64,000 nucleotides of DNA from Dehalobacter sp. DCA. GTDB lineage: Bacteria; Bacillota; Desulfitobacteriia; Desulfitobacteriales; Syntrophobotulaceae. Made by a program: the position numbers and the translations under genes. Of the stretch, positions 486 to 26,429 are shown piece after piece (the first letter of the stretch is position 1; each line of letters starts with the position of its first letter). The stretch covers positions 2,499,001-2,563,000 of the forward strand of contig NC_018866.1 of the NCBI RefSeq assembly GCF_000305775.1, given 5' to 3'. A model generated the notes under the pieces. It did no database searches, was not told where the DNA came from, and saw only the letters and a program-made list of their open reading frames with translations.

Positions 486-1637
486 TCAACTATTCTCTAG
501 GATATACTCTAATGCAGCTTCAAGCTGTACGAAATCTTCGTCAGTATTAAAATACCCGACGCTGAATCTCACCGTTCCGGAGGGGAAAGTCCCTAAGAAG
601 CGGTGAGCATCCGGAGCACAATGTAGCCCAGAACGGACAGCGATGTCTCGTTCGCTGAGTATCTGCCCAATGTTATCACTACTATATCCCTCAAAGACCG
701 TTGAAACGACACCAATGCCTAGTGCAGGGTCAAGCGGTGATACAATCTTAATGTTACTATACCTTGAGAGCAAATCAACCAACCGCTTGTGGTTTTCATT
801 TTCCTTCTCGAAAATCGTATTTATTCTGACACGGTCAATCCATTTTAAGGACGCATTTAGACCTGAGATTGCTTGTATGTTTGGGCTTCCGGATTCATAG
901 CGGTCAGGCAGAACATCAGGAAGTAAAGGGTTTGCTGAATCTGTTCCCGTACCACCATAAAGCAGCGGTTCCAGGCGGAAATCAGGGTTCATTATGAAAC
1001 CGCCTAAACCCAGAGGTCCGTAAAGCGTTTTATGAGCGGCGAATACTGCATAATCAATGTTATTGTTATTGAGGTCGGTATCAATGAGACCCATTGTCTG
1101 GCACATATCGATAACGTTCGTTGCGCCGTATCTCTTTGACTGAGTGCAAATTTCAACAATAGGAGCGATCACACCACAAACGTTACTTGCATGACTTATT
1201 ATGACTACGTTCGGCCTGTTCTCGGCGAACTGATACTTGATCTGCTCAAGGTCATAATTATAGGTCTCCTTATTAAAGGCAAGGGTGATCACATTGAACT
1301 TGAAGGTCTGCGCCGCATAGTTGATAACCCTTGTAACCGCGTTATGTTCGAAGGGAGATACGTATATGTTGAGGTTATCCTTGCAGATGAGACTCCGCAG
1401 AATGAGGTTTAATGCTTCTGTCGCTGAAGGTGTGAAAATGACCGTTTTGTTGTGGCAGCGGTTGAGGTCGAGAAGTAGTCTGCGGGTTTCGGCAACGAGC
1501 GCCGCGGCCTTAGCTGCCAGTTTATGCTGACCACGCCCGACATTCACGCCGCATTCACGGTAGAAAGTATCCATGAACTGATAAACTTCTTCCGGTTTAG
1601 GAAAAGTCGTTGCGGCATTATCAAAATAGGCGGTCAT
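486..1637 (-). CDS. Cysteine desulfurase (SspA/DndA-type, class V aminotransferase)
   Basis: This is a PLP-dependent enzyme that takes sulfur from cysteine onto an active-site cysteine persulfide. Visible are the N-terminal DNAATTFPKP motif, the Schiff-base lysine in AAHKTLYGP (about K203) and the catalytic cysteine in RSGLHCAP (about C340). The length of 383 aa is normal for the family. The sequence resembles the SufS-like cysteine desulfurase family rather than housekeeping IscS. In this operon it most likely supplies sulfur to the PP-loop enzyme encoded at 8006-9721 for DNA backbone phosphorothioation, as DndA/SspA do. It lies 16 bp downstream of the DGQHR gene and immediately before the helicase-like gene. 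The family is clear; the pathway assignment is by context. Confidence 0.9.
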   Translation of the reverse strand: MTAYFDNAATTFPKPEEVYQFMDTFYRECGVNVGRGQHKLAAKAAALVAETRRLLLDLNRCHNKTVIFTPSATEALNLILRSLICKDNLNIYVSPFEHNAVTRVINYAAQTFKFNVITLAFNKETYNYDLEQIKYQFAENRPNVVIISHASNVCGVIAPIVEICTQSKRYGATNVIDMCQTMGLIDTDLNNNNIDYAVFAAHKTLYGPLGLGGFIMNPDFRLEPLLYGGTGTDSANPLLPDVLPDRYESGSPNIQAISGLNASLKWIDRVRINTIFEKENENHKRLVDLLSRYSNIKIVSPLDPALGIGVVSTVFEGYSSDNIGQILSERDIAVRSGLHCAPDAHRFLGTFPSGTVRFSVGYFNTDEDFVQLEAALEYILENS

Positions 1638-1653
1638 AGTATTCTCCTCATTT

Positions 1654-2907
1654 TTATATGTCTATTTCAAGTTGGTTTGCGGCTTCTACTTGTGTCATTT
1701 GAACCGCACTTGCGTAAGCACTGATAAGTCTCTTTTGCTCATCTGGCAATAACAGGTTTTTATCATAATAATGAATTAGGAGTAACTCTACAGCCTTATG
1801 ATGATTCACAAGCATCTTATGGTTTTTTCTATCCCACAGGACACCACCCCATTGGGCAGAATTAATATTTAGTTCAATTTTATTCATTTTCCTTGCTATG
1901 TCCTCGAAGCTATTTTCTGTTTTTTTATGGATAACGAGAATGGATTTAACGAATGGAATTAGTGCAGCTGGTCTAAAAAGAAGGTTTCCTCCATTTCGAT
2001 TTCTAAAATTAGTTGTATTTGCGGGATTACTAATATAACTCTTAATATCATCGATTTCGCTGACTAGACTATCCCAGAATTCTCTACATAAGATTTCAAA
2101 TTTAGATAGTTGTTCATCATTTGGTCTAAATCTTATATACTCTTTTGCCTTTGTTCCACCTTTTACTTTTCTTCCATCAGGATCTTTTACCTCAACATTA
2201 GCCAGAAAGAGGTTGAGCAGTTCGTAATTGCTTTCATAAAAAGTAATTATCGAAGTAAATGCTTTAGTATTGCTCTCTGGTATAGCTTTTCCTTTCGCAT
2301 CAAGAATCCTTTCGTTTTCAAATAGAGGAAAAGATTCTAGTAGATTACGTGAGACAATTGCAACACAATCATCTTCATCTAGAGCAATAATATCTCTCTT
2401 CGATACAGGTTTTGCATATCGGTTTAAAGTGCTGAATAACCGCCTCGCACGTTGCATGCCTGTTTCGTCGTTTTTGTGACCAATAAAAATGACAGATATA
2501 CGTTCTGATACAAACTTATCACTCTTTTTTAAAACCTCTTTTATGCCTTCTACTCTGTGTTGTCCATCAACCGGAAAAATCTTTTCATCGCCAGTCAATT
2601 CAAGCAATCCAATGTCATAATATTCCTCATCGGCACCAAAGTCTAGACGGATCTCATGCCACTGTGGATCACCGTCATATACGGCTAAAACTAATGAATT
2701 AAAAAAACGCTCTTCCTGCTGCTCAATGTAGGTTGCTATTTTCTTATAGTTATCGGTAATACTTCGTTGAAGCATTTCTCGAAGGACAGTTGATTTATGA
2801 AGCTCATCATCAACTGGTTTAACATACTTCCTTACTTGCTCAAATGTCATAGTCGAAATATAATAAACCCATACTCCAATCCTTGCCCTAATTGCAGGAA
2901 TTTTCAT
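1654..2907 (-). CDS. DGQHR-domain protein, DndB-like
   Basis: The protein of 417 aa carries the signature DGQHR at residues 114-118, in the context IFPVDGQHRVEG, followed by RRLFSTLNRYAKPV about 45 residues later. This layout is typical of DGQHR proteins, including DndB. Known members are regulators of dnd operons or DNA-linked proteins of phosphorothioate systems, and the PT-sensing effector SspE uses a related DGQ-type motif. The ATG follows AAGGGGGAAGG. It sits 12 bp after the GIY-YIG gene in the same direction. It could be a repressor, a PT sensor, or the sensing partner of the neighbouring nuclease. The sequence supports the domain but cannot decide among these roles. Confidence 0.85.
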   Translation of the reverse strand: MKIPAIRARIGVWVYYISTMTFEQVRKYVKPVDDELHKSTVLREMLQRSITDNYKKIATYIEQQEERFFNSLVLAVYDGDPQWHEIRLDFGADEEYYDIGLLELTGDEKIFPVDGQHRVEGIKEVLKKSDKFVSERISVIFIGHKNDETGMQRARRLFSTLNRYAKPVSKRDIIALDEDDCVAIVSRNLLESFPLFENERILDAKGKAIPESNTKAFTSIITFYESNYELLNLFLANVEVKDPDGRKVKGGTKAKEYIRFRPNDEQLSKFEILCREFWDSLVSEIDDIKSYISNPANTTNFRNRNGGNLLFRPAALIPFVKSILVIHKKTENSFEDIARKMNKIELNINSAQWGGVLWDRKNHKMLVNHHKAVELLLIHYYDKNLLLPDEQKRLISAYASAVQMTQVEAANQLEIDI

Positions 2908-2919
2908 AGTCCTTCCCCC

Positions 2920-3435
2920 TTACACTGAGAATGCTTTGACGGCTGTCCGAATTTGTTTATCTGGGATCATATCATTAAATGGCGGTAATACCTTATTAAT
3001 GATCTCCGATTCTATGGAATCAATAAGGTCATTATCAGTTAATGGTAAATACCTAACATATAGGTATTGCCCCCAGCCTTCAATCATTCTTTTTACCTTT
3101 GGCCTAGACTGCTCTTTTATATACTCCTTGCATCTTTTTCTAAGGTTCTGGTTATAAGTATAATGCGCACGTCCCACGTACAATAAATAAAAGTGTGAGT
3201 TGGGAATTAAGTTTGGTTTTGCGACAAAGAGATAAATTCCTCCTGTATTGGTAGGGAGATCGCTCATCTCAGAGTTAAGATCGCCATCTGCAGCAAGGAA
3301 CTTCGCCTCAAGCCAAACTTGCGTTGCGTGAAGCTCTGCCTTTATTTTTGCATCAAAATTATCCCAAAAAAAAGAATTTAAAACAAAATCAACTTTTGAA
3401 GTAGGTATAGAGCTTAGAATGTCTATCTCTTTCAT
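2920..3435 (-). CDS. GIY-YIG family endonuclease in phosphorothioate-type operon
   Basis: The 171-aa protein shows the full GIY-YIG layout. It has GIY at residues 66-68, YVG at 86-88, an arginine-rich helix (LRKRCKEY, R99/R101), a glutamate at about 142 in SIESEIINKV, and PPFND with N154 twelve residues later, as expected for the catalytic Glu/Asn pair. The first 60 residues are an extra helical segment of unknown function. The start codon overlaps the stop of the ATPase gene as ATGA, which implies translational coupling. Such nucleases cut or nick DNA with a single metal ion. In this operon it could be the restriction effector or a nickase that opens DNA for sulfur insertion. Confidence 0.75.
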   Translation of the reverse strand: MKEIDILSSIPTSKVDFVLNSFFWDNFDAKIKAELHATQVWLEAKFLAADGDLNSEMSDLPTNTGGIYLFVAKPNLIPNSHFYLLYVGRAHYTYNQNLRKRCKEYIKEQSRPKVKRMIEGWGQYLYVRYLPLTDNDLIDSIESEIINKVLPPFNDMIPDKQIRTAVKAFSV

Positions 3436-6400
3436 TTGCTCAACCTCTCCAAAATATCAATCAATACTTGGCGTTTCTCATGCTCGCTGATCGACTGTCC
3501 CATTTCTTCAATAGCTGTTTTGATTTCATTAAGGAGCAACTTTGCACGGTCACTGTAGGCCGTCTTGTTAAATCGCTTTACGACCCCAACACCATCAGCA
3601 TCTGTAAAGATGATTTCATACGATGATGTTTTTTGCTTATCTGAATCAGTTTGGGCATTAAAGCCCTCGACAGTTTCTTTGAATGCTTGCAAATCCCTCA
3701 GGAAAATATCTACCGTATCACTATTCCAATCATCAATTCGCAAATAGGTGACTGCTTTAGTAAGGCGCTGTATGAAGGAGTTCTCATCATTTGTTACCGT
3801 CGCCATCAGTTCAAGAATTTTACTTTCGCTGCCGAAAAATAAGTGCTGCCTCGTTCTCTCGCTTAAGGTTTCGTACCAATCCTTAATGGTGGACGCCAAA
3901 CTTCCGTTTGACTTTCCACTTGCAAACAACGTTTTGACCGCGTTGTTCAAGTAAACAATCAGATTTTTAACAGCGCCATCATACTCGTCCTTGGTTGCTT
4001 TGATATTATCGACAACATTCACGTTGAATGTCCTATATCCGTAGGTATCGAAAATCTTTTCAAACAGGAATTCGCGCGGATTGACGTTCATCTGTTTGAG
4101 GCTGCCTAAAAACTTCCTCCGGTCTTGCGCGATCTTTTCCGGTTTATTGTTTTCGCTATACTTCTGCGTTGATTCTTTGGCGAACTTCGGTAAGGACAGA
4201 TACCAGCGGTTCATGGCGAGAAACAGATAGGTAAAGCTGTTATAGGCTTTCTCACGCTCGGTGACAAATTCAGAGAAGACTTCTTCTAACTGTGCCATGT
4301 ATTGCGCCTTTTCCTCATTCCAATTTTCGAGGATAACAGAGTATTCGCTCGGTGACTCATTAATATCATTGAGCAACTCAGGTGTGATCTTAACCTCGTT
4401 GCCGCGATATAGGATCACAAGGTTGTTCTTATACAAATGAAGTACGAGGGCGATGTATATAGGGATTACACCATACTTCAATCCGAATCCGTTTCTATGG
4501 AGCGTAAGCGTATCATATAGAGACTGAAAGCTTACCCCATCATGCCTTGCGGCATTCTCTGTGAAAAAAGTGCTAATCTGAGTAAGCAGATCCGTCATCC
4601 TGTTATCTGCAGGCTGGAGCTGAATCCTAGGATCGGTATCTGCGTTTTCAAGCACTCCTGTTTTTATGAGGGTGCTACGCATAATGGAGACATCCTGACC
4701 TGTACCCGAAAGACCAATATTGGGGGCAAGTTCGTTTGCAAGCAGGCCCGCTAGTATTTTGGTGCGACTGTTGATTGCAACGGTCGGAAGATCATTCTTA
4801 TTGATCGACTCATTGTTGATGATGGGTGTTCGATTAAACACTGCCCCACAGATATCCGAGAGCAAGCCTGACAGTTGTGCCTTACGCCGAAAGATGTTCT
4901 GATTCGCATTATAGAAGTAATATGCGCTACCCTTTTCGGGCCTTGCATAGCTGTTGATGAAGCTACCTACAACATCCGATAAATCCTCAACGTATATGGC
5001 ATACTCATCATTCAATATTTCGTCTCCCGACTCTGCCGCTTCATTTTTGAGATATGTGACCGCCGCATAGTCGAGTGCATCCTTCGTAATGTCTACCCAC
5101 TTTTTCGGAAGGATAAAGACGATACGCTCGTGGGGATTATTATCTGAGAGTATTGCTTGGCGCAGCTTCTCGATTTCATCCTCACTTCCGGGAATAATAG
5201 CGTAAATAACACCGTCTGCATTGCTACCAGAGATTTTTCTGTCCCAATCTGTGATAGCCCAAAAATCTTTACTGTCAATAAAAGTAAAGTCAAAATAACG
5301 GATTATATTATTCGCATCGTTATAGGCGGTCGGGTACATATAGCTATCAAAGGCAGATTCATTGAGAATTTTTGTAGCCGTCGTGACCGACAACCGCTGA
5401 GCCTTATACTTGGCGATTTCCTCCTGTATGTCAACACCGCTTGTTTCCTTGATCTTAAGATAGTTGTTGCTCCGCTTGAGATAAACCACACAATCATTGT
5501 CGATTAAGTCTTTGAGGGTAAGATCGATCTCTTTTGTGGAACTAAACGAATCGCGGTAAGCGTCAACGATCACGTCTACAACAGGCGGCAACTTCTCAAA
5601 CTGCTCTACCAGATAAATAAGAGCGATGGTCTTGATGATCTTTTCGTGCAGCGGTTTCCCTTCCACTCTCCGAAGGACGCTCGCCGTCAGCTTATATATC
5701 TTGTGAGCTTCGCTTGTGTACGGCTCTTTTCTGAGTAGAGGCTCAAAGTAGTCATAGATGTAGTCAGGCGTGAGCAATTCAAAATCTCCAGCCGAAGCAA
5801 TGAAGTCTGACAGCGTATGCTTTTCATCCGCAGACAAGAAAGTAAACAGAGTGCGTTCATTCTGCGCTACCTTCTCAGACAGGCGTGGCAGGATGAAAGT
5901 TGAAATCGGGTGCAAAGGATAGCAGCCCTCAATTGCGGTCGTAACCTCATCCTGATTGTTCTTATCAAGCAGTCCGTTTTTGATGAAACGATCCTTGAAG
6001 TCACCAAAACGTAATCGGTTTGCTAGGAGAAACGGCTCCCACAACGCTGGATTCTTTTTTATGACCGCCGATATAATCTCATACATCTGTGAATAGTTAT
6101 TATGGAGATTAACGTGCTTAAATCGGCCGGACACACCGCGCCAACCGTCCACCTTATCTTTCGGAAGGTTGCTATCGATGTAGTTGGCGATATCTTTATG
6201 GCTTATGAGCATGAGGTGCATTTGCGTATTGCCGCTGCGATTGCACTTTTCAGCGAAATCCTGCAAGAGCTTAATGTCGCTGTTTGTAGCTGAGGCGATG
6301 CTTGATTCAAGATACTTGCTGAATTCATCGTATATCACATAGACGCCGCAATACCCCTTGTCCTTCAGCTTGACAGTGATATTCTCATAAAGATCGACAA

Positions 6401-7067
6401 TATCAAAGCCCAGGAAGGGATTGAACATGCTGCCAGATGTCAACGTCGGATATACCTGCGCAAACTCTTCGTAAGCATTCACGTCGTATTCGTTAAGGGC
6501 GAGTATGAAATCGCTCACGGATTTGCTGAGCGTAGCTTTCAGTTTTTTATATGTATCGTGATACTCATCCCGCCATTTCTCAATCTGATTAACCGCTGCT
6601 TTGAAATGTGTCTCGGGCATAAGGTCAGAAAAGCCTTCTTCACTGAGGGCTTGCTGGATGGCACTTAGAAAAGACTGCGTGAGGCTCGTACTACTGCCGC
6701 GCACTACGATTGGAAGTATCTTCTGGTCGCTGTTTATGTACTCAATAGCAAATCTGTAAAGATCGGGATTGCTTGCTTTCATCTTTTCAAGAAGCGCGCC
6801 GAACAGAGCCTTACCTGTGTCTTCACCTTTCCGGAAGAGCATAGACAGTAAGACCAAAATAATATGGGATTTCCCTCTGCCGTATGCGCCGATAAGTATC
6901 CTGGCTCTCTGTGTTGAAGTCGGCACTGTAGAAAGCAGCACGTCCTCAATCACGTCAAGAGACGACATAGTCGGAATAAATCCCCGAACCTTATCGTCAT
7001 TATTCAGGTCATAGGCGATATTGACAGAGGTTTGAAACCCCTTGGATATTTCAATCAGTTCTCTCAT
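3432..7067 (-). CDS. Large P-loop ATPase of phosphorothioate-type operon (SspC/BrxC-like)
   Basis: The protein has 1211 aa, with a Walker A motif GAYGRGKSH at residues 60-68 and a probable Walker B VYVIYDEF ending at about residues 247-248. The GxGKSH form and the great length recall the large ATPases of defence islands (SspC of Ssp systems, BrxC of BREX). I cannot separate these families by eye. The remaining 900 residues show no recognisable catalytic motif and are probably helical scaffold. AAGGAGC precedes the ATG. The gene lies between DUF4007 (24 bp gap) and the GIY-YIG gene (ATGA overlap). It likely powers assembly or DNA translocation of the modification or restriction complex. Confidence 0.75.
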   Translation of the reverse strand: MRELIEISKGFQTSVNIAYDLNNDDKVRGFIPTMSSLDVIEDVLLSTVPTSTQRARILIGAYGRGKSHIILVLLSMLFRKGEDTGKALFGALLEKMKASNPDLYRFAIEYINSDQKILPIVVRGSSTSLTQSFLSAIQQALSEEGFSDLMPETHFKAAVNQIEKWRDEYHDTYKKLKATLSKSVSDFILALNEYDVNAYEEFAQVYPTLTSGSMFNPFLGFDIVDLYENITVKLKDKGYCGVYVIYDEFSKYLESSIASATNSDIKLLQDFAEKCNRSGNTQMHLMLISHKDIANYIDSNLPKDKVDGWRGVSGRFKHVNLHNNYSQMYEIISAVIKKNPALWEPFLLANRLRFGDFKDRFIKNGLLDKNNQDEVTTAIEGCYPLHPISTFILPRLSEKVAQNERTLFTFLSADEKHTLSDFIASAGDFELLTPDYIYDYFEPLLRKEPYTSEAHKIYKLTASVLRRVEGKPLHEKIIKTIALIYLVEQFEKLPPVVDVIVDAYRDSFSSTKEIDLTLKDLIDNDCVVYLKRSNNYLKIKETSGVDIQEEIAKYKAQRLSVTTATKILNESAFDSYMYPTAYNDANNIIRYFDFTFIDSKDFWAITDWDRKISGSNADGVIYAIIPGSEDEIEKLRQAILSDNNPHERIVFILPKKWVDITKDALDYAAVTYLKNEAAESGDEILNDEYAIYVEDLSDVVGSFINSYARPEKGSAYYFYNANQNIFRRKAQLSGLLSDICGAVFNRTPIINNESINKNDLPTVAINSRTKILAGLLANELAPNIGLSGTGQDVSIMRSTLIKTGVLENADTDPRIQLQPADNRMTDLLTQISTFFTENAARHDGVSFQSLYDTLTLHRNGFGLKYGVIPIYIALVLHLYKNNLVILYRGNEVKITPELLNDINESPSEYSVILENWNEEKAQYMAQLEEVFSEFVTEREKAYNSFTYLFLAMNRWYLSLPKFAKESTQKYSENNKPEKIAQDRRKFLGSLKQMNVNPREFLFEKIFDTYGYRTFNVNVVDNIKATKDEYDGAVKNLIVYLNNAVKTLFASGKSNGSLASTIKDWYETLSERTRQHLFFGSESKILELMATVTNDENSFIQRLTKAVTYLRIDDWNSDTVDIFLRDLQAFKETVEGFNAQTDSDKQKTSSYEIIFTDADGVGVVKRFNKTAYSDRAKLLLNEIKTAIEEMGQSISEHEKRQVLIDILERLSK

Positions 7068-7090
7068 GTGCTAAGCTCCTTGCGACCTAA

Positions 7091-7999
7091 TCATCCATTG
7101 ATTTCTCTGTAATATTCACTCACGCAATCGTAGAAGTTCCAGTTAGTCAGTATATTTATAACATCCAGCCCCGCCGTCCTATTCACCTTGATATGGCCGA
7201 GTATTTCAATCTTATATAGAAGTGACGTTAGGCTTATGATGTCAAGGTTAAAGGCTTTTCCTGCATTTCCGTTATCATTCTGGATACTGGATATGCGGAC
7301 TTCTTTCTCACCGCGAGCCTGGTCAACGAGGACGGCAAGCAGAATCAGAGGATGAAGCATGTCCTTTTTCGGTGCGCTCTTGCGATATATCTTTTGTCTG
7401 CCTCCGCCTTTCTCCGTTCCCACAATATCGATAAGCCCGAGCTCTCCGAGGGGGCAATCAATATTGCTTTCGGGCTTGACCTTTTCAGAATTTGACTTCA
7501 TGCGAGAAACATAAGTGTTGATTATACAGTTGAAGTCGTCTTCAATTGTCCTCATAGGCTTTTCGCCTTCATCGCTGTTGCGAAGGAACTTGCTTATCTG
7601 CGCGAGGAAGTCCTCCCGCGTGAACTCAGTCATTTTGAATTCATTGAAGAAATACCACCACGCCGTAGCCTCTGTGTCAGTCGCTTCTTTATCGCGGACG
7701 AGCATATAATGGAGCAACCACAATGTCCCCGTTTCTTCGAAGTACGGATCATTCGCTTGGATAATCCTGCCTAGATCAGTGGGCGTCTGTACTCTTGGTC
7801 CTGTGTCAGCCTCTCCGGTCAACCCGACTGCCACCATCCAGTAGCGTAGGGCTTTGACCATGTTTGCGCCAATGCCAAGTACGTCCATAGGGTTATTTGT
7901 CTTGCTGATAAATACATCAGAGGAGGCGAGAACACTTCGCATTCCCTTAGAGAGCCAACCCTTTCGGATAAAAAATGTATCATGAGCGCGGAATTTCAT
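7091..7999 (-). CDS. DUF4007 family protein (SspB-like)
   Basis: The 302-aa protein starts with MKFRAHDTFFIRKGWLSKG, the diagnostic N-terminus of DUF4007. This family occurs almost only beside phosphorothioation genes, and the SspB nickase of single-strand Ssp systems is, to my knowledge, of this type. The C-terminal half looks like a winged-helix DNA-binding region. It lies only 6 bp downstream of the PP-loop gene, so the two are one operon. No classical nuclease motif is visible. By analogy it may nick DNA so that sulfur can be inserted. The family is confident; nickase activity is inferred from the family. Confidence 0.85.
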   Translation of the reverse strand: MKFRAHDTFFIRKGWLSKGMRSVLASSDVFISKTNNPMDVLGIGANMVKALRYWMVAVGLTGEADTGPRVQTPTDLGRIIQANDPYFEETGTLWLLHYMLVRDKEATDTEATAWWYFFNEFKMTEFTREDFLAQISKFLRNSDEGEKPMRTIEDDFNCIINTYVSRMKSNSEKVKPESNIDCPLGELGLIDIVGTEKGGGRQKIYRKSAPKKDMLHPLILLAVLVDQARGEKEVRISSIQNDNGNAGKAFNLDIISLTSLLYKIEILGHIKVNRTAGLDVINILTNWNFYDCVSEYYREING

Positions 8000-8005
8000 A
8001 TATTT

Positions 8006-9721
8006 TTATCCTTTCGTCCTTAAATACTTTCCCATCGTACAGCCGCCGTCAAGGTACTTTGCGGTTACGCACATTTTGCACCGCTGACACTTCTGCAAGT
8101 TTATCTGGTAGACGCCACCAATTATTGAGATCGCACCGAACCGGCAGAGGGACTCGCACTTGAGGCAGCGCCGGCAGGCGTTGTATTTCCTTATTTGATA
8201 ACTCACCATACGCTGGAGGTCATCGTGCCTTGCCACATTCATTGTCTTGACCTTTACCGAATACTCATAGCCTTCCTGAGCGAATGGCTGAATTGAAAGG
8301 ATAGGCGTATTAGTCTTCATGTCCACAACAATTGTCTCGTTGATGAGCTTTCGTCCGAGTTCAGGAGCTATTCGCCCGAACGGAACGAACAGGCTAATGA
8401 AGCTGTCGTCTATCGGTTTATTAAGCTGATAGACCTTAGCGTTGTCCTCGGTGGTGCAGTTTGTGTAACGGATCTTAACATCCTGTGCGGCTTCAAGGCC
8501 GTTACCGCCTTGACGAGCTTTCCACTTTCCGCTGTTGATGTATTCTTCCGGATCAGGCTTTCCGATGCGCTTCGCAAAGTTGACGAGGAAGTTATGCCAC
8601 TTCTTGTATTGATCAGGCATGTATATCTGAGATAGGAACTGTGCCCGCTCATTGTTATTCGGGCAGCACCAACAACCTACGCGGTCATAGCCGAGGCGGT
8701 AGGCCGCGTTGAAATCTATTTCTTCTCCGAATATATAGAGCCAAATGTCGATGTCTTTCCAGAGGAAGATGGACGACGCCACCTTCTGCTTCTGGATTTT
8801 TACTGACTCAGCGTTATCCTCAACTCGGTTATACTTGCTGCGAGCGACAGACTCGCACTTGCGGATACCGTAAAACGTGAGTATATCCTTATCGCAGTAC
8901 ATGCTGTTCAGGACACGGGTGATGGGTCCCGTCTTGAACATCGAGCAGCACCACCGGAGCATTCTTGCTGGAGGTCCAATGTCCTCGCACATGTTAAAAA
9001 AGTCCTGCTCGCGATTGATCGCGGTCTTGAAAATCGCTTTGGGATTCGCCTTACGATAGCGCTCGGCGTATTCTACGGTAAGCGGAAACTCTAGCGTCGT
9101 ATTTCCGAAGATATGTACGAGGGAAGGGTCTCCGAGAGCCTTGATAGTCAAGTCAGCTGTAACTGTAGAATCCTTGCCTCCCGAGAACGATATCACCAGG
9201 CACTCACGCGGGTATGGCTTTACAGTCTGTTTGATGAATGTATGCGCCTCGTCAATGATGAATCTCAGCCGGAGCCGGTTGATACTGACGAAGGTCTTTA
9301 TGTTATCCTCGAAAAAGACGGAGCTGTTCTGCTGTGAGAACTGCTCTAGCTGCCGTTGAATATCAGTGACCGTCTGATTCTTATATGCCTTCAATGAAAC
9401 CGTCAGAGGTTTCCCGTCTATGTAATACCTATTGTTTGATGCCCAAACACTTTTATCCATGTAGGCGAGCGGCTTTCCTGTCAAAACCTCAAGAAGTAGG
9501 CGCTCTTCGGGAAAAACGGGGCGAAGGTCCGTGCATAGATAAGAGGTTGTCTGTTTACATGATGGGCAGATATCCTTATCGATATCAGTGGCAAACTTAA
9601 TGATCGGTGCCTTGCAGTTCTCGCACCAGTAAATTTCGAGCGGAATATCCGGCTCAGTTACTGTTCCGCACAGCTCGCATTTTTCAGTCTCTGTTTCGCG
9701 GCTACAAGCCCTGCACCACAT
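8006..9721 (-). CDS. Zn-ribbon/PP-loop/ferredoxin DNA sulfur-transfer enzyme (DndC/SspD-like)
   Basis: The 571-aa protein has three parts. Residues 1-60 hold cysteine pairs (C3/C6, C15/C18, C33/C36, C52/C55) typical of zinc ribbons. The middle is a PAPS-reductase-like PP-loop domain with SFSGGKDS at about 178-185, RWCCSMFKTGP, and a cysteine cluster GCWCCPNN. The C-terminus has two ferredoxin-like clusters, CRRCLKCESLC and CQRCKMC. DndC and SspD are ATP pyrophosphatases that activate the DNA backbone for sulfur insertion. Here a zinc ribbon and an electron-transfer module are fused to that core. It is the first large gene after the XRE regulator. The enzyme class is clear; the DNA substrate is inferred from the operon. 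Confidence 0.85.
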   Translation of the reverse strand: MWCRACSRETETEKCELCGTVTEPDIPLEIYWCENCKAPIIKFATDIDKDICPSCKQTTSYLCTDLRPVFPEERLLLEVLTGKPLAYMDKSVWASNNRYYIDGKPLTVSLKAYKNQTVTDIQRQLEQFSQQNSSVFFEDNIKTFVSINRLRLRFIIDEAHTFIKQTVKPYPRECLVISFSGGKDSTVTADLTIKALGDPSLVHIFGNTTLEFPLTVEYAERYRKANPKAIFKTAINREQDFFNMCEDIGPPARMLRWCCSMFKTGPITRVLNSMYCDKDILTFYGIRKCESVARSKYNRVEDNAESVKIQKQKVASSIFLWKDIDIWLYIFGEEIDFNAAYRLGYDRVGCWCCPNNNERAQFLSQIYMPDQYKKWHNFLVNFAKRIGKPDPEEYINSGKWKARQGGNGLEAAQDVKIRYTNCTTEDNAKVYQLNKPIDDSFISLFVPFGRIAPELGRKLINETIVVDMKTNTPILSIQPFAQEGYEYSVKVKTMNVARHDDLQRMVSYQIRKYNACRRCLKCESLCRFGAISIIGGVYQINLQKCQRCKMCVTAKYLDGGCTMGKYLRTKG

Positions 9722-9777: not shown

Positions 9778-10005
9778 TTACTCAGATGCCTTCATAACTG
9801 TTGTACCCGGCACGACCTCCATAATATCAGCAATATCGCAGTCGAGAGCCCTGCAGATCTTCAGCAGGACGTCTGTCGTGATGTTCTCACATTTTCCAAG
9901 TTTCGCCATAGAGGTAGTGCTGATCCCGGATGCTTGCTTAAGGTCCTGTTTATTCATACCCTTATCGATTAGCAGCTTCCAAAGCTTGTTATAACTGATA
10001 GCCAT
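9778..10005 (-). CDS. XRE-family (Cro/CI-type) regulator
   Basis: This 75-aa protein is a single helix-turn-helix domain with the pattern KQDLKQASGISTTSMAKLGK, ending near ALDCDIADIMEV as in small Cro-like repressors. GAGGTG sits upstream of the ATG. It is the promoter-proximal gene of the minus-strand phosphorothioate-type operon, 56 bp before the PP-loop gene, and faces away from a small plus-strand gene. It most likely controls this island. No operator palindrome could be pinned down in the intergenic region. Confidence 0.85.
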   Translation of the reverse strand: MAISYNKLWKLLIDKGMNKQDLKQASGISTTSMAKLGKCENITTDVLLKICRALDCDIADIMEVVPGTTVMKASE

Positions 10006-10480: not shown

Positions 10481-10756
10481 TTATTCTCTTGGAAGATTCA
10501 ATAAATTGTCTTTTGTGGTATAGTCCGGCGTTGACTTTACATACTTTTCACCATTAACACTTGTAGCATGTACCACATTAGGGTACGGGGTAATATTTAC
10601 TTGTAAAGTTCCAGGGTGCTCTTTAACATAATCATGCACTGCAGCTTTCGTGTAATATCCATCCTGAGTACTACCCGTAATATAGATGGAATCAATTTCG
10701 AGTAAATTATTGGATGTACCACATCCAGTCTTCATTTTAATTTTCGTAGCTCTCAT
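10481..10756 (-). CDS. DUF3892 family protein
   Basis: A small protein of about 91 aa with the DUF3892 pattern: a beta-rich N-terminus, KAAVHDYVKEHPGTLQVN, then VNGEKYVKSTPD near the C-terminus. The start chosen is the ATG at 10756 (MRATKIK), which has GAGGT six bases upstream; a longer frame exists but lacks a ribosome-binding site. The function of DUF3892 is unknown. It follows the internal-repeat protein in the same direction and may share its transcript. Confidence 0.75.
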   Translation of the reverse strand: MRATKIKMKTGCGTSNNLLEIDSIYITGSTQDGYYTKAAVHDYVKEHPGTLQVNITPYPNVVHATSVNGEKYVKSTPDYTTKDNLLNLPRE

Positions 10757-10791
10757 AAGGTTACCTCTACTTTCAATCAATTCCTATTCAT

Positions 10792-11034
10792 TCATCTTTC
10801 CTTTTCTGCCTGAGAGAGGACACTTCCAGCAAGTGATTTTGTCAGATCATTGTATTTACTGCTCTGAAGAACTTTCGAAGCAATGTCTTCCATTTTGGAA
10901 CTTGTTTGATTATCTTTGGCAATTTGTGAAAGAACGCTGCCTGCTAAAGTCTTCTGAATATCTGATGCTTCTGGATTAGCTAATATTTTTGCCGCTTTTG
11001 ATGCCATACTTTTAGATGTTGATTTTGGGTTCAT
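10792..11034 (-). CDS. Small hypothetical protein with two internal repeats
   Basis: The 80-aa protein has a perfect AAAGGAGG site. It contains two copies of a 30-residue unit ending in KTLAGSVLSQ and KSLAGSVLSQ, each starting with a helix of the type ASKxxxxL. The composition is Ala/Ser/Lys rich with no cysteine or membrane segment. I do not recognise a function; the duplication suggests a small helical-repeat protein. It lies between the ImmA/IrrE cassette and DUF3892. Confidence 0.7.
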   Translation of the reverse strand: MNPKSTSKSMASKAAKILANPEASDIQKTLAGSVLSQIAKDNQTSSKMEDIASKVLQSSKYNDLTKSLAGSVLSQAEKER

Positions 11035-11061: not shown

Positions 11062-11090
11062 AAACGGCAACCGAAGTCCGGCTGCCGTTT
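11062..11090 (-). terminator. Terminator after ImmA/IrrE gene
   Basis: On the minus strand AAACGGCA pairs with TGCCGTTT around a G/C-rich loop, followed by an AT-rich tail. It overlaps the stop codon of the ImmA/IrrE gene and ends the sigma/ImmA cassette. Confidence 0.6.
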
Positions 11091-11868
11091 AGTAATCATC
11101 ATCCTCTAATCTAACTATTGATAATTTCATGTCTAACTTTGAGAAATACCACGTTTGCTCATAACAGCGAGTATCTTGTGAATAAGTACTATCTTCAAAC
11201 CAGGCATTTGGGTCAACATAGCCCTCCTGTCTCATTTTATCTACATTCGTAATGTAGGATAAAGTATTATTACTGATCTTTCCGTTTTTCAATATCGACC
11301 TGCATTCAGGAGATTTCACTACCCTTTGAATTATATTATTTTTTTGGCTAATTAACGCAACATTTTCGTCACTTAATTCAATCATCCTGATAATTGCAGA
11401 TGTCAGCGAAATTTCATACTGCTCGGATAGTTCCTGCGCAATATCTAGGGAGATATCTCTTGTCCTCAATTTGTTTAGAACAATATTCCTTGGCAAAAGA
11501 AGTTGAGCGGCAAATTGATTTGCTTCTCTCTCCTTAGTTTTGGTATTTATCCCCATATTGAAATCTTCTTTCCGGCAGAAATGAACTCCATGGTGAATAA
11601 ACAAATGACCGATTTCATGAGCGATAGTAAAACGTTTTTGATTATTATTGTAAATATCCGGAGAAATGACAATAAGCTTTTTTAATCCCTTAACTTTACA
11701 AGCTCCTAAGATACCTTCTTGTATAGGGGCTTGTTTCAAATGGATATCAAGTGCATTGATAACATTATCCAAATCTAGAGCTGAATTATCGTTAATTCCT
11801 AGTTCTTTACGCAAATCATCCGCATACCATTCAGGATTTCTTCTTTCATAAAAGAAGGATTTATTCAT
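11089..11868 (-). CDS. ImmA/IrrE family metalloprotease
   Basis: About 259 aa. The zinc site is FTIAHEIGHLFIHH, which contains HExxH, and REANQFAAQLLLP follows about 30 residues later, as in ImmA and IrrE. The start is taken at 11868 (MNKSFFYERR), where ATGAATAA overlaps the end of the previous gene. The longer frame would run through the whole upstream gene. These proteases cleave repressors or anti-sigma-like proteins in response to DNA damage or mobile-element signals. Here it follows a sigma factor and a small acidic protein, so the acidic protein is an obvious candidate substrate. Confidence 0.85.
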   Translation of the reverse strand: MNKSFFYERRNPEWYADDLRKELGINDNSALDLDNVINALDIHLKQAPIQEGILGACKVKGLKKLIVISPDIYNNNQKRFTIAHEIGHLFIHHGVHFCRKEDFNMGINTKTKEREANQFAAQLLLPRNIVLNKLRTRDISLDIAQELSEQYEISLTSAIIRMIELSDENVALISQKNNIIQRVVKSPECRSILKNGKISNNTLSYITNVDKMRQEGYVDPNAWFEDSTYSQDTRCYEQTWYFSKLDMKLSIVRLEDDDY

Positions 11869-12187
11869 CACTAAATTCCTCATTAAATAGCTCATCAATA
11901 ATTCTCTGAGCATCATCGTTTCCGTCAGAATCCTTACGGTCTTTTCTAAAATCAGCAGCTTGGGGCAATGAATATAACTGTTCCTTATAGTCATTAATTT
12001 TTTTAAAAACAGCATCAAATTCTTGAGTATAAGGTACGGAGATAGTCATATTAATTATTTTAGATAATTCCTTAAATTCTTCAATATCATCTTGAGCCAA
12101 ATTTTCGTAAAAATAATTATAATCTATGTCTTGTCCTGAAGTTATTTTATCAGTGTAAATGACAAGAGCTTCATCTAAACTAATCAT
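11861..12187 (-). CDS. Acidic small protein between sigma factor and ImmA/IrrE
   Basis: A 108-aa protein starting at MISLDEALVIY; GGGAGGT lies just upstream, which favours this start over a longer one. It is acidic and helical with a charged tail rich in Asp and Glu (FRKDRKDSDGND, then EELFNEEFSDE-like). No known domain is recognised. Its place between a sigma factor and an ImmA/IrrE protease, with an 8-bp overlap with the latter, suggests it is a regulator such as an anti-sigma or antirepressor that the protease degrades. This role is inference only. Confidence 0.65.
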   Translation of the reverse strand: MISLDEALVIYTDKITSGQDIDYNYFYENLAQDDIEEFKELSKIINMTISVPYTQEFDAVFKKINDYKEQLYSLPQAADFRKDRKDSDGNDDAQRIIDELFNEEFSDE

Positions 12188-12241
12188 CAGAATTACCTCC
12201 CTGTAAGTTAATGTCATGAAGCTTATCAATTCGTCGCACTC

Positions 12242-12814
12242 TTATAACTTTTCTTTTAAAATTTTTCTTAGTGATTTCAATGCCCGGCTATACAATGAAT
12301 ATATTGCTGACTCACTCTTCTTGGATATTTCTGATATTTGTTCAAAAGATACTTTGTTAAATAGTCTTAATTGAATAATTTGTTGATGTTCGGGGGAGAG
12401 TTGGTTAATAGCTGCAATAATAGCATCATGAATTTCTTTGTTGAGGATAACAAACAATGGATCTACGCTAAATAAGGAAATAATATGGTCAAACTCGGCA
12501 TCCGGCATGTCTTCAAGCAAAGTATTTTTGGTTTTTTTCCTAAGTTGTTCCATAATAACAAACTTAGCAATACCGATAACCCAGCTGGCAAATTCCGATG
12601 AACCATCATAGCGCTCTAATTTTTCTATACTCCTTTTCAAAGACTCCATAATGATATCGTCTATATCATGGCTATCCAAGGCGCTTCCTTTAGTCCGGGA
12701 TACCACATATTTCTTTAAAAGTGGTAATGTTTTTGAATATAATTTTTGACCTGCTGCCTCATCTCTGCATAAATATTGATGTACAAGTTGATAGTCTTCT
12801 GAATGTTTACGCAT
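12242..12814 (-). CDS. Sigma-70 family RNA polymerase sigma factor
   Basis: About 190 aa. Region 2 is visible as DIDDIIMESLKRSIEKL with ASWVIGIAKFVIMEQLRKK. Region 4 is QLSPEHQQIIQLRLFN followed by the helix-turn-helix SFEQISEISKKSESAIYSL. The start is the ATG at 12814, with GGGGGTAGG five bases upstream; a TTG five codons earlier is less likely. Region 3 is absent, as in ECF-type factors. It is the first gene of a three-gene cassette with the acidic protein and the protease and probably directs transcription of its own or nearby accessory genes. Confidence 0.85.
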   Translation of the reverse strand: MRKHSEDYQLVHQYLCRDEAAGQKLYSKTLPLLKKYVVSRTKGSALDSHDIDDIIMESLKRSIEKLERYDGSSEFASWVIGIAKFVIMEQLRKKTKNTLLEDMPDAEFDHIISLFSVDPLFVILNKEIHDAIIAAINQLSPEHQQIIQLRLFNKVSFEQISEISKKSESAIYSLYSRALKSLRKILKEKL

Positions 12815-12870
12815 ATAGCCTACCCCCAAGCTTTAAAATCTTATAAATGTTTATCTTTCCTTACTTATTC

Positions 12871-13019
12871 TCATTCTGACACATCAGATTCGTCGGTCCC
12901 ATTACTGTCTACAGTTTTTGTTGTTTTATCCGACGGATAACCGTATTTCTTCTGCAGCCGCTTTATAGTCATGTTAATTTTGGTCTGAAAATTATCACGA
13001 ATGCCCCAATACAAAAAAT
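12871..13019 (-). pseudogene. Remnant of type I restriction enzyme HsdR, C-terminal tail
   Basis: Reading the minus strand gives an open segment of about 48 codons ending in TGA, with WGIRDNFQTKINMTIKRL and then LQKKYGYPSDK. This matches the conserved end of HsdR subunits, in which a helical segment is followed by (R/K)KYGYPPDK. Nothing upstream continues the gene; a NUDIX gene starts there instead. It is a relic of a deleted type I restriction-modification locus. Confidence 0.55.
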
Positions 13020-13020
13020 A

Positions 13021-13479
13021 TTAGAAATTAACACCGTGTACGCTATTGAAATTGTTTTCAGTATTTATAATATGATCGCTCCCCAACCTCTCCACCACCT
13101 CAACATCCACCGGACAAAACGTATATAGTCCCAATTCCTCCGCCCTCAACCACCGTATATTCCGGTGAACCATTCTTTCCAGCTCCCCCTCAATAATCCG
13201 GCTCTCAAAGAAAGTAAAGCACATCTCATTATCCCCATAAGTATACCGACTCTCCGCAAACACCTCATCAACCTGTATCGTCACGCCCAGCTCCTCCTGA
13301 CATTCCCGAACCAGACATTCTTCCAAGCTTTCCCCTTCTTCCTGCTTCCCACCCGGAAACTCCCAAAGCATCGGACAGCTTCCCGTATTATCCCGCTGAC
13401 AAATTAAAATCTTATCATCCTGCCTTATGATGGCTGCGGTGACTTGCGTTACTATTTTCTGATCCATCATTTCGTCCAT
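13021..13479 (-). CDS. NUDIX hydrolase (MutT-like), copy 1
   Basis: About 152 aa with a perfect Nudix box: GGKQEEGESLEECL followed by VRECQEELGV. The N-terminal TQVTAAIIRQDDKILICQR and LWEFPGG are typical of 8-oxo-dGTP-type hydrolases that clean nucleotide pools, although the exact substrate is unknown. Several ATG codons lie close together; 13479 was chosen because the preceding GTGGGTTGAG aligns with the start of the paralogue at 18270. The C-terminus has an extra tail of about 17 residues (INTENNFNSVHGVNF) that the paralogue lacks, probably added by a recombination that also left the HsdR relic next door. Confidence 0.85.
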   Translation of the reverse strand: MDEMMDQKIVTQVTAAIIRQDDKILICQRDNTGSCPMLWEFPGGKQEEGESLEECLVRECQEELGVTIQVDEVFAESRYTYGDNEMCFTFFESRIIEGELERMVHRNIRWLRAEELGLYTFCPVDVEVVERLGSDHIINTENNFNSVHGVNF

Positions 13480-13535
13480 CATCTCAACCCACAATTAATT
13501 TATTGGTTTTCTTAATAAACTTCGCTGGTATCGGC

Positions 13536-17868: not shown

Positions 17869-18270
17869 TCATATTTGCCCCTTCCCCAACCTCTCCGCCA
17901 CTTCCACATCCGCCGGACAAAACGTATACCGTCCCAACTCCTCCGCCCTCACCCACCGGATATCCTGATGAACCGTTCTCTGCAGTTTCCCTCCGATAAT
18001 CCGACAATCAAAGAAAGTAAACTGCATCTCTTTATCCCCATACATATACCAACTCTCCGCAAACACCTCTCCCACTCGTACCGTCACGCCCAGTTCCTCC
18101 TGGCATTCCCGAACTAGACATTCAGCCAGAGTCTCCCCTTCTTCCTGCTTCCCGCCCGGAAATTCCCAGAGCGACGGGCAGCTGCCGCTGTTGTCTCGCT
18201 GGCATATCAAGATTTTCCCATCCTGCCGCAGGATCGCCGCAGTAACCTGCGTTATTTTCTTCTCTTCCAT
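17869..18270 (-). CDS. NUDIX hydrolase (MutT-like), copy 2
   Basis: 133 aa, a close paralogue of the NUDIX protein at 13021-13479. The Nudix box is GGKQEEGETLAECL followed by VRECQEELGV, and the N-terminal TQVTAAILRQDGKILICQR is nearly identical. It ends eight residues after VEVAERLG, without the extra tail of copy 1, so this is probably the ancestral form. The likely role is hydrolysis of damaged or unusual nucleoside triphosphates. The start ATG follows GGGTTGAG. Confidence 0.85.
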   Translation of the reverse strand: MEEKKITQVTAAILRQDGKILICQRDNSGSCPSLWEFPGGKQEEGETLAECLVRECQEELGVTVRVGEVFAESWYMYGDKEMQFTFFDCRIIGGKLQRTVHQDIRWVRAEELGRYTFCPADVEVAERLGKGQI

Positions 18271-24531: not shown

Positions 24532-26429
24532 ATCGAGTAGGAGGGGGCGTCTCGCCCCCGGCCTCTCACACCACCGTATGTGCGGTTCCGCGTACGGCGG
24601 TTCAATAGTTTAAGTGCAGTACCTCGTATTTCTTGGCTATGTCATCATAGCCGAGGGATTCGAGGTATTTGTCAGTCAACGTATGATTAAGTATCCCGCT
24701 CCCGGCTACTCTCCAGTAGCCTTTGCCAGTGTACCCATTCTTGTGTGCCCAGTAAACCGACATGCCGAGTGCTATCAAGTTCCCGATTCGGGTTTTTGGT
24801 TTCTTCCACTGCTTCCAGATATACATCCGTATCCGTCGTTTCAGCCACCTGTTCAGTTCCTGAATTCTGCTCTTCATACCGGCAATAGCGTAATAATTAA
24901 GCCACCCCGTTGTATATAGCTTCAGTTCCTTCAGAATCTGTTGAATGGCCCTTCCGCGATTCCGTTTTGTGATGCCTTTGAGCTTTTCCTTGAATTTCTT
25001 CATTGACTTTTCATGCACCCGTATTCCCGTACCTTTGCCCGTCCTGTACAAGGCAAAGCCAAGGAACTTAAGCTTCAGCGGTGATCCCGCTTTACTCTTT
25101 TCCGAGTTCACTTTCAGCTTTAGTTTCTTCTCAAGGTACTGCTTACAGCTTTCTAATACACGTTCTGCTGCTCTGCGGCTCTTGGTGTAGACAGCAATGT
25201 CATCCGCGTATCGCAAATGCTTGTGCCCCCGTCTTTCCATTTCCTTGTCGAATTCATTGAGGTAGATATTCGAAAGTAACGGAGATAACGGGCCTCCCTG
25301 TGGGCTGCCTTCCTCCGTCTTGCTTTTCACTCCATTCTCCATGACTCCGCTTTTCAGAAACTTCTTGATGAGGTCTATAATCCGCTTATCTTTTACTTCT
25401 TTGCGTATTATATTCATCAGCAGTTCATGATTCATCGTATCGAAGTATTTTGACAGATCGATATCCGCTGCGCGGGTATATCCCTGTTCGTAGTACTCTT
25501 TCGCTTCCTTCATGGCTTGCTGTGCGCTGCGCCCCGGTCGATAGCCGTAGCTTGCCTCCGAAAACAGCGGTTCAAAGATTGGTTGCAATATCTGCACCAA
25601 TGCCTGTTGCACCATCCGATCAATGACCGTTGGCACACCAAGTTTTCGTACTCCTCCATCCGGTTTGGGTATCTCTACTCTCCTAACCGGTTGAGGCCTG
25701 TACATCCCGTTTCCTAAACTCTGTAGCAACTCCTCTCTGTGTTTCCTGAGCCAGGGCAGCATTTCATCCACGGTCATTCCGTCGACTCCTGCTGCTCCAC
25801 CGTTTGACTTAACCCTTTTGAAAGCCCTGTTCAGGTTTTCTCTGTCCAGAAGTCTTTTCATTAGGTCGACTGCACCGTCTTTTTCCTTGGTTTCTCGTTC
25901 AACGATGCTCCGCGCTCCGCCGTTGTCTTCGGGTTCCACCCTATCTTCCGGGCGGCAGCCAAGGTTTCCCTCGTATTCTGCCTTCTTCACATCGTCCACC
26001 TTCTTCCTTCTTCAAAAGACTACTACTGTTCAGCCCTTCCCGCGTTTCCGCGGTACTATAGCTTCTGCTGACTTCTCATGCCTCAGCTACACATCACTGC
26101 GCGGTTTGCTCCTGTGGGTCGTCGAATGCGTCCCTCTTGTCGGGAGCGTGGTATGAGATCTCCCCGGGTAAGAACAACAACCTTCATCCCATGTAACCGC
26201 CGCATTTACTGTACAGGGTTCGGGTAGTATTGGACTTTGTTTTATTAAGCAAACTCGTCCACCCTGATTCAGCCTTATATGCGGTTTCTGTTCGTCGGTT
26301 CAGGACTTTGCTTACGGCTTCCTTTAGATTCCACCTCACGATGGACACCCTTGCCGTTCGGCTAGCACTTCCTACTACCAAGCGTGCAGCGGACTCTCAC
26401 CGCCGAGTTGTTGCCCATGCCGGGCGCAC
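24532..26429 (-). mobile_element. Group II intron (class C-like), downstream copy of a tandem pair
   Basis: 1898 bp. On the minus strand it begins GTGCGCCCGGCATGGGC and ends in a G/C hairpin (GGGGGCG/CGCCCCC) followed by TCCTACTCGAT. The domain V-like CGTACGCGGAACCGCAC segment lies just inside the 3' end, and the LtrA-like protein is in the 3' half. It is directly joined to the second copy at 26430 with no spacer; its 3' side borders unique AT-rich sequence. Confidence 0.9.
24602..25999 (-). CDS. ltrA: Group II intron reverse transcriptase/maturase
   Basis: 465 aa with a GTG start after GAAGGAAGAAGG. Reverse-transcriptase blocks are visible as GVDGMTVDEM, RRVEIPKPDGGVRKLG, SYGYRPGRSAQQA, DIDLSKYFDTMNH, GSPQGGPLSPLLSN and the catalytic LRYADDIAVY, followed by the GIIM-type maturase domain (LNYYAIAGM, then a basic helix). 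There is no HNH endonuclease domain, consistent with class C introns. The protein splices the intron RNA and copies it into DNA. Confidence 0.95.
   Translation of the reverse strand: MDDVKKAEYEGNLGCRPEDRVEPEDNGGARSIVERETKEKDGAVDLMKRLLDRENLNRAFKRVKSNGGAAGVDGMTVDEMLPWLRKHREELLQSLGNGMYRPQPVRRVEIPKPDGGVRKLGVPTVIDRMVQQALVQILQPIFEPLFSEASYGYRPGRSAQQAMKEAKEYYEQGYTRAADIDLSKYFDTMNHELLMNIIRKEVKDKRIIDLIKKFLKSGVMENGVKSKTEEGSPQGGPLSPLLSNIYLNEFDKEMERRGHKHLRYADDIAVYTKSRRAAERVLESCKQYLEKKLKLKVNSEKSKAGSPLKLKFLGFALYRTGKGTGIRVHEKSMKKFKEKLKGITKRNRGRAIQQILKELKLYTTGWLNYYAIAGMKSRIQELNRWLKRRIRMYIWKQWKKPKTRIGNLIALGMSVYWAHKNGYTGKGYWRVAGSGILNHTLTDKYLESLGYDDIAKKYEVLHLNY

Follow-up and report, generated by a model that had tools for sequence, protein, structure and literature searches.

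Defence operons are costly and often toxic, and to our knowledge all the local controllers known for them act as repressors. CapH-CapP, which controls CBASS, Bub and other immune operons, was reportedly described by Lau in 2022. The 64,000-nucleotide stretch of Dehalobacter sp. DCA analysed here (the window) contains a CapP-like metallopeptidase gene, and the gene directly upstream of it encodes a small acidic protein and not the HTH repressor CapH (Pfam, NCBIfam). These two genes are preceded by a gene for an ECF-type sigma factor, and all three occupy 12814 to 11089 of the minus strand (Table 1). This raises the question of what a sigma factor, an acidic protein and an M78 metallopeptidase do together beside a defence operon. 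Judging from its sequence and from its relatives, the cassette is probably a positive, protease-gated sigma switch for the adjacent defence island. A preliminary description had proposed that cleavage of the small protein by the protease frees the sigma factor, and this reading is backed, indirectly and in outline, by the conservation of the triad, by mirrored promoters in its relatives and by a shared tail of the small protein.

The sigma factor gene (gene 1) is separated by a gap of 54 nt from the gene of the acidic protein (gene 2), which overlaps the metallopeptidase gene (gene 3) by 8 nt. The small protein encoded by gene 1 has both sigma-70 region 4 (Pfam Sigma70_r4, 2.9e-10) and sigma-70 region 2 (Sigma70_r2, 3.6e-8). 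It also matches NCBIfam sigma70-ECF (1.8e-21), its nearest solved structure is SigW (2e-11), and an hhalign comparison of the window sigma and its Desulfosporosinus counterpart with ECF sigma factors gives 99.9%. The protein encoded by gene 2 contains 27 D and E against 11 K and R residues and has no family in Pfam, NCBIfam or PADLOC, no HTH match and no recognised anti-sigma domain, in agreement with the preliminary description of an acidic protein of unknown family. Its AF2 model is helical with a mean pLDDT of 68, residues 69-90 scoring below 50, and a fold search with this model matched no solved fold. Gene 3 matches Pfam Peptidase_M78 (2.1e-14) and, over almost the whole model, PADLOC capP (9.9e-47), and its nearest solved structure is CapP (7t5t, 1e-15); the AF2 model of the protease had a pLDDT of 44 and was left out of the analysis. 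The catalytic HEIGH motif and the reading frames of all three genes are intact. Coordinates, Pfam, NCBIfam and PADLOC thus confirm the close or overlapping arrangement of the three genes noted earlier.

Table 1 Features of the cassette and of its downstream neighbourhood in the window
Feature	Position	Strand	Basis
Candidate sigma-autoregulated promoter GTGTC...AAGGAAAGAT	12849..12885	minus	Suggestive only
Gene 1, ECF-type sigma-70 factor, 190 aa	12242..12814	minus	Pfam, NCBIfam, closest structure
Gene 2, acidic protein of 108 aa, proposed as anti-sigma and as substrate of CapP	11861..12187	minus	Sequence
Codons A77-R84 of gene 2 (AADFRKDR), weak A-A-R tail variant, candidate cleavage region	11936..11959	minus	AA[DN]FR in both Bacillota copies
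Gene 3, CapP-like ImmA/IrrE (M78) metallopeptidase, 259 aa	11089..11868	minus	Pfam, PADLOC, structure
80-aa protein, no known family	10792..11034	minus	Pfam search
Like element GTGTC...AAGGAAAGAT upstream of the DUF3892 gene	10790..10826	minus	Suggestive only; overlaps end of 80-aa gene
DUF3892 protein, recurrent cassette companion	10481..10756	minus	Pfam 1.6e-10
Small XRE/HTH_26 (VanU-like) regulator	9778..10005	minus	Pfam, NCBIfam
PAPS-reductase-like protein, BrxP/SspD-like	8006..9721	minus	PADLOC BrxP 4e-77, SspD 3e-11
SspB (DUF4007)	7091..7999	minus	Pfam 4e-85, PADLOC SspB 3e-58
SspC-like ATPase	3432..7067	minus	PADLOC SspC 1e-116
DndB-like protein	1654..2907	minus	PADLOC DndB 1e-20
SspA/DndA-like cysteine desulfurase	486..1637	minus	PADLOC SspA 6e-39

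Behind gene 3, in the same orientation, lie genes for the 80-aa protein, the DUF3892 protein and the small XRE regulator, and then an Ssp/Dnd-like DNA-phosphorothioation defence operon. SspA, SspB and SspC are matched in the window, while the SspD position is taken by a PAPS reductase closer to BrxP. The region 486-9721 resembles a hybrid phosphorothioation operon, in which SspA, SspB and SspC are joined by a DndB-like protein, by a further protein of 171 aa and by this BrxP-like reductase in place of a typical SspD. The 80-aa protein was tested as a homologue of the 92-aa proteins found on plasmids (see below) and is unrelated to them.

Absence of the three genes elsewhere had been set beforehand as grounds for refuting the preliminary description, but the triad recurs in a Desulfosporosinus MAG and on many plasmids. 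Contig JARLHU010000113 of the MAG (G034) carries the cassette in identical gene order, and the proteins share 35% (sigma), 44% (acidic protein, the best conserved) and 35% (peptidase) identity with those of the window. A PDC-M36A-like gene and then Wadjet jetABCD come after this cassette. The window DUF3892 protein is 62% identical to that of a gene near the Desulfosporosinus cassette, a higher value than for the cassette genes themselves. Among 82 genomes of the class the MAG is the only one besides the window to carry the cassette, a scan for gene 2 across 84,980 genomes returned the MAG as its sole match, and searches at the level of order, class and phylum (acidic-protein profile over 398 phylum genomes) gave no third Bacillota copy. 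The 13 other peptidase matches, which are the best CapP relatives and come from 12 further genomes of the 398, have no sigma neighbour, and their partners are MqsA-like HTH proteins, HsdS or a fused HTH. Ordinary ECF factors are the closest sigma relatives in the 398 genomes, and 0 of the 29 fetched non-window loci have an M78 gene. No relative of window gene 2 or of the window sigma was found on viral contigs, nor of window gene 2 on plasmids. Bacillota CapP-like genes lie after DUF4258-like and MqsA-like HTH genes, or after an HsdS gene, at loci L018-L026, L030, L062, L135, L027 and L029.

Further copies of the triad lie on 22 plasmids and on a viral contig, where they often face Bub or CBASS operons. 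A search with the window peptidase gave 96 plasmid records at E<=1e-6, and the 20 that were inspected, four of them reached via other matches, comprise 15 triads and five pairs of an HTH gene with ImmA. With the C. sphaeroides peptidase as query, 26 records reached E<=1e-20, and the triad is present in 20 of 20 inspected. In the plasmid triads the genes mostly overlap, gene 1 encoding about 180-210 aa and gene 2 about 120-145 aa ahead of the peptidase; the start of gene 1 in S. meliloti is uncertain because it runs to 248 aa from the first start codon. The viral contig with the triad is L133, and a further one, L134, has genes 2 and 3 with no intact gene 1. A Microvirga plasmid (L117:4869-5453) carries a gene 1 relative alone, without small protein or peptidase.

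A profile of 13 proteobacterial gene 1 proteins can be aligned over 155 columns to ECF sigma factors (95%, E 2e-8), compared with less than 2% for the controls (reversed sequences and gene 2), and five records are annotated by NCBI as sigma-70. By this comparison gene 1 of the proteobacterial plasmids is a divergent sigma-70 factor. The Bacteroidota gene 1 proteins (Spirosoma, Pontibacter) reach 50% to ECF sigma and 94% to proteobacterial gene 1 and are probably sigma factors as well.

The position of the triad is that of the repressor/protease pair CapH-CapP in other loci. Annotated neighbours are Bub operons in Celeribacter, two Paracoccus, Pontibacter and Pseudosulfitobacter, and CBASS operons in Roseivivax, B. 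septentrionale, Pseudoalteromonas and Cereibacter sphaeroides 2.4.1, the last being a laboratory strain with a complete copy of the cassette (plasmid pDE) opposite the CBASS operon. Other annotated neighbours are ThiF and patatin (Bradyrhizobium 26S5) and DUF2188 or DUF3892 genes, and next to several triads (Spirosoma, Azospirillum, Aestuarium, Sphingomonas and unannotated records) no defence operon is recognised. The sigma-type and HTH-type controllers look interchangeable because HTH and ImmA genes stand at the equivalent place of the Bub operon of Jiella and the CBASS operon of Polaromonas JS666. The 13 sigma-type copies from proteobacteria form one group (99/99) in a tree built from 34 CapP proteins, a result compatible with one or with several origins. 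At loci L120, L127, L128 and L193 the first gene under the divergent promoter, ahead of DUF2188 or CBASS genes, encodes a conserved 92-aa protein (65-79% identical) with no Pfam family above the cut-off.

The intergenic region between gene 1 and the divergent operon of the proteobacterial plasmids contains two mirrored copies of the ECF-type promoter TGTCCGA-N16/17-GCATAG, one of which reads the sigma gene and the other the opposite operon; in B. barranii a DUF3892 gene lies under the mirrored promoter. When scored with a leave-one-out matrix, the site facing gene 1 was equalled by at most 1 of 300 dinucleotide shuffles at every one of 10 non-redundant loci. The copy on the side of the opposite operon beat every shuffle at 8 of 10, being weak in Paracoccus SCSIO and 26S5. 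This test is not blind because the mirrored promoter was first seen by eye in those sequences. The near-copies P. marcusii and S2214 were left out of this set, and Pontibacter, which the test did not touch, does not fit. With the leave-one-out matrix no such sites were found at five CapH-type (HTH-type CapP) control loci. The independent test is provided by seven loci fetched later, a set without L133 (contig edge) and L134 (no intact gene 1), in which the ends of the promoter regions of S. meliloti and Novosphingobium were chosen by hand on records without annotation. The forward site was recovered at six of the seven (<=4/300 shuffles), the reverse site at five (<=3/300) and the pair at six (<=2/300), with Pseudoalteromonas failing. 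An exact search for the motif across 13 whole plasmids (1.71 Mb) gave 13 matches, all but one within the promoter region of the cassette, and the reversed control pattern matched once in the same plasmids. Drift of the element tends to affect both sides of one locus (TTCTGA in 26S5, TGTCCGC/GCCTAA in Azospirillum), which is what two copies read by a single sigma factor should show. A generic two-strand dyad search of the intergenic regions did no better than shuffles.

Proteobacterial gene 2 proteins contain a C-terminal segment such as MAARNGKELSERD, and unrelated Bacillota proteins that are encoded directly before CapP (MqsA-like HTH proteins and two HsdS) have like ends, LAARGG..GISERD and IAARGD. 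Within the last 45 aa, 13 of 17 gene 2 proteins and 10 of 11 other CapP partners carry the pattern A[AF]R, against 38 of 1098 background ORFs; the pattern was picked after the tails had been seen, and the independent test is the set of gene 2 proteins fetched later, of which eight in nine contain it. An HMM built from the non-sigma CapP partners only ranked gene 2 proteins 2, 3, 6, 7 and 14 among 3447 ORFs, with window gene 2 at 30 and others down to 294, and did no better than shuffles for gene 2 of Celeribacter, P. marcusii, Polaromonas and Azospirillum. The reverse HMM is weaker (p 3e-4 for the 11 partners) and placed window gene 2 202nd of 2754. The tail resembles the DdrO loop E116-L117-R118-G119, the region of the PprI cleavage site, in which R118 is needed for ssDNA-stimulated cleavage (PMC10904395). 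We read the gene 2 tail as the putative CapP recognition or cleavage region, and the tails shared by the MqsA-like HTH and HsdS partners suggest that CapP may cut antitoxins and type I specificity subunits too.

Tail and promoter signals are less marked in the window's own copy. Between window gene 2 and plasmid gene 2 the comparison gives 0.1%, a relationship that is undetectable, and window gene 2 lacks the A[AF]R pattern proper. Its variant AADFR sits in a low-confidence stretch of the AF2 model, and under the HMM of the other CapP partners window gene 2 outscores all but 11 of 500 shuffles. Neither the window nor the Desulfosporosinus contig contains the plasmid promoter motif, and a search with this motif found no sigma site for the window ssp operon. 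The two GTGTC...AAGGAAAGAT elements lie 71 nt (sigma gene) and 70 nt (DUF3892 gene) from the ATG, and such a pair arose in 6 of 200 shuffles at any distance and in 1 of 200 at equal distance, values that are suggestive only because several regions were tried and part of the element is coding. Desulfosporosinus shares no element of this kind. By sequence, a promoter pair placed to serve both the switch and the opposite operon exists in the proteobacterial plasmid relatives and is only suggested in the window.

In the proposed switch the cassette would stand in for the repressor CapH of CapH-CapP. At rest, the ECF sigma factor would be kept inactive by the small protein. The CapP-like protease would be activated, probably by ssDNA or DNA damage by analogy with the CapP and PprI families, a signal that is likely because of the defence context (the Ssp-like operon and the CapP-type protease), which the preliminary description had overlooked. 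It would then cut the small protein near the C-terminus, where the tail motif is common to other CapP partners, and the freed sigma factor would lead RNA polymerase to its own promoter and to the second copy before the defence operon. Sigma factor, inhibitor and protease would in this way be made together with the defence proteins in a positive feedback until the signal ends. We infer that the ssp operon of the window is controlled by its cassette in this manner.

The roles could be distributed otherwise, with the protease cleaving or activating the sigma factor itself, or with the small protein serving as a chaperone or co-activator and not as an inhibitor. Such roles would fit the lack of an anti-sigma family match for gene 2 and the fact that some gene 2 proteins are not acidic overall. 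However, the A-A-R tail of the proteins encoded before CapP sits in gene 2 and not in gene 1, and a sigma gene followed by that of a small protein is the usual order of sigma/anti-sigma pairs, so that both variants appear quite improbable. A toxin-antitoxin or addiction module, carried along passively by defence islands and plasmids and without influence on the genes beside it, is a most improbable account of the triad. It would fit the many plasmid-borne copies, the pairing of Bacillota CapP relatives with DUF4258/MqsA-like proteins, the few triads that have no divergent gene (Sphingomonas) and the Microvirga plasmid on which gene 1 stands alone. Against it, the mirrored promoter points at the adjacent operon in most loci and has hardly any second match per plasmid.

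A further reading concerns the window only and is compatible with the general mechanism. The window triad may be a relic or act on other genes, with the small XRE gene controlling the Ssp-like operon. The XRE gene lies directly before the ssp operon, for which no sigma site was found, and a gap of 475 nt separates the DUF3892 gene from the XRE gene and the operon. A relic is at odds with the three intact frames and the preserved HEIGH motif, as well as with the DUF3892 protein that accompanies both Bacillota cassettes at 62% identity, and we consider this reading rather unlikely for the window and the protease-gated sigma switch the better account of its cassette.

RsiW, RsiP and RseA belong to ECF sigma/anti-sigma pairs that are activated by regulated proteolysis. 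The cassette resembles these pairs in the small protein that follows the sigma gene, in proteolysis as the proposed trigger and in a candidate autoregulated promoter (only suggestive in the window), but its small protein is soluble and has no recognised anti-sigma domain, and the same operon encodes a cytoplasmic M78 protease and has defence operons as its proposed targets. CapW/BrxR, CapH-CapP and CapK-CapS are named as controllers of immune operons (PMC13373217). As described there, CapH-CapP shares with the cassette a CapP-type M78 protease at an immune-operon promoter, the CBASS and Bub loci and a probable ssDNA signal (PMC13373217). The cassette differs from it in having a sigma factor and a separate small protein with no HTH repressor, and in that it would activate with positive feedback where CapH-CapP derepresses. 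PprI(IrrE)-DdrO also relies on an M78 protease, and PprI cuts DdrO at a loop near the C-terminus in which one Arg is critical (PMC10904395), but DdrO is a DNA-binding repressor and the system has no sigma factor. CapK-CapS and CapW/BrxR are likewise swappable controllers of immune operons and respond to DNA damage (PMC13373217), whereas their proteins and chemistry are unrelated to those of the cassette. No description of a sigma-CapP cassette was found in the accessible parts of the searched literature (including PMC13373217, PMC10904395, PMC12839542, PMC8195603, PMC7159879, PMC11153139 and PMC12255303), a search that covered few subscription papers.

On a broader view we lean slightly towards a mobile and widely shared class of controllers, which would combine a damage-activated CapP, a portable soluble anti-sigma protein with an A-A-R tail, a dedicated ECF sigma factor and two mirrored promoters through which switch and defence operon would be raised in step. 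CapP would be a general cutter in this class, because the A-A-R tail is also found on unrelated proteins encoded before CapP (MqsA-like HTH antitoxins and HsdS), and its substrates would acquire the tag. If so, CBASS, Bub, Wadjet and phosphorothioation systems would have a control logic of another kind, a sigma-based activator with built-in feedback, many 'hypothetical' genes beside defence operons would be explained, and the promoter motif would predict the regulated operons.

The window holds further features away from the cassette operon. Upstream of the sigma gene, an ORF of 47 aa (12871-13014) gives the impression of a C-terminal remnant of a type I restriction subunit. Two NUDIX-type proteins (13021-13494 and 17869-18270) look similar by eye, and, also by eye, two identical 465-aa ORFs of the group-II-intron reverse transcriptase type lie 1.9 kb apart at 24602-25999 and 26500-27897.
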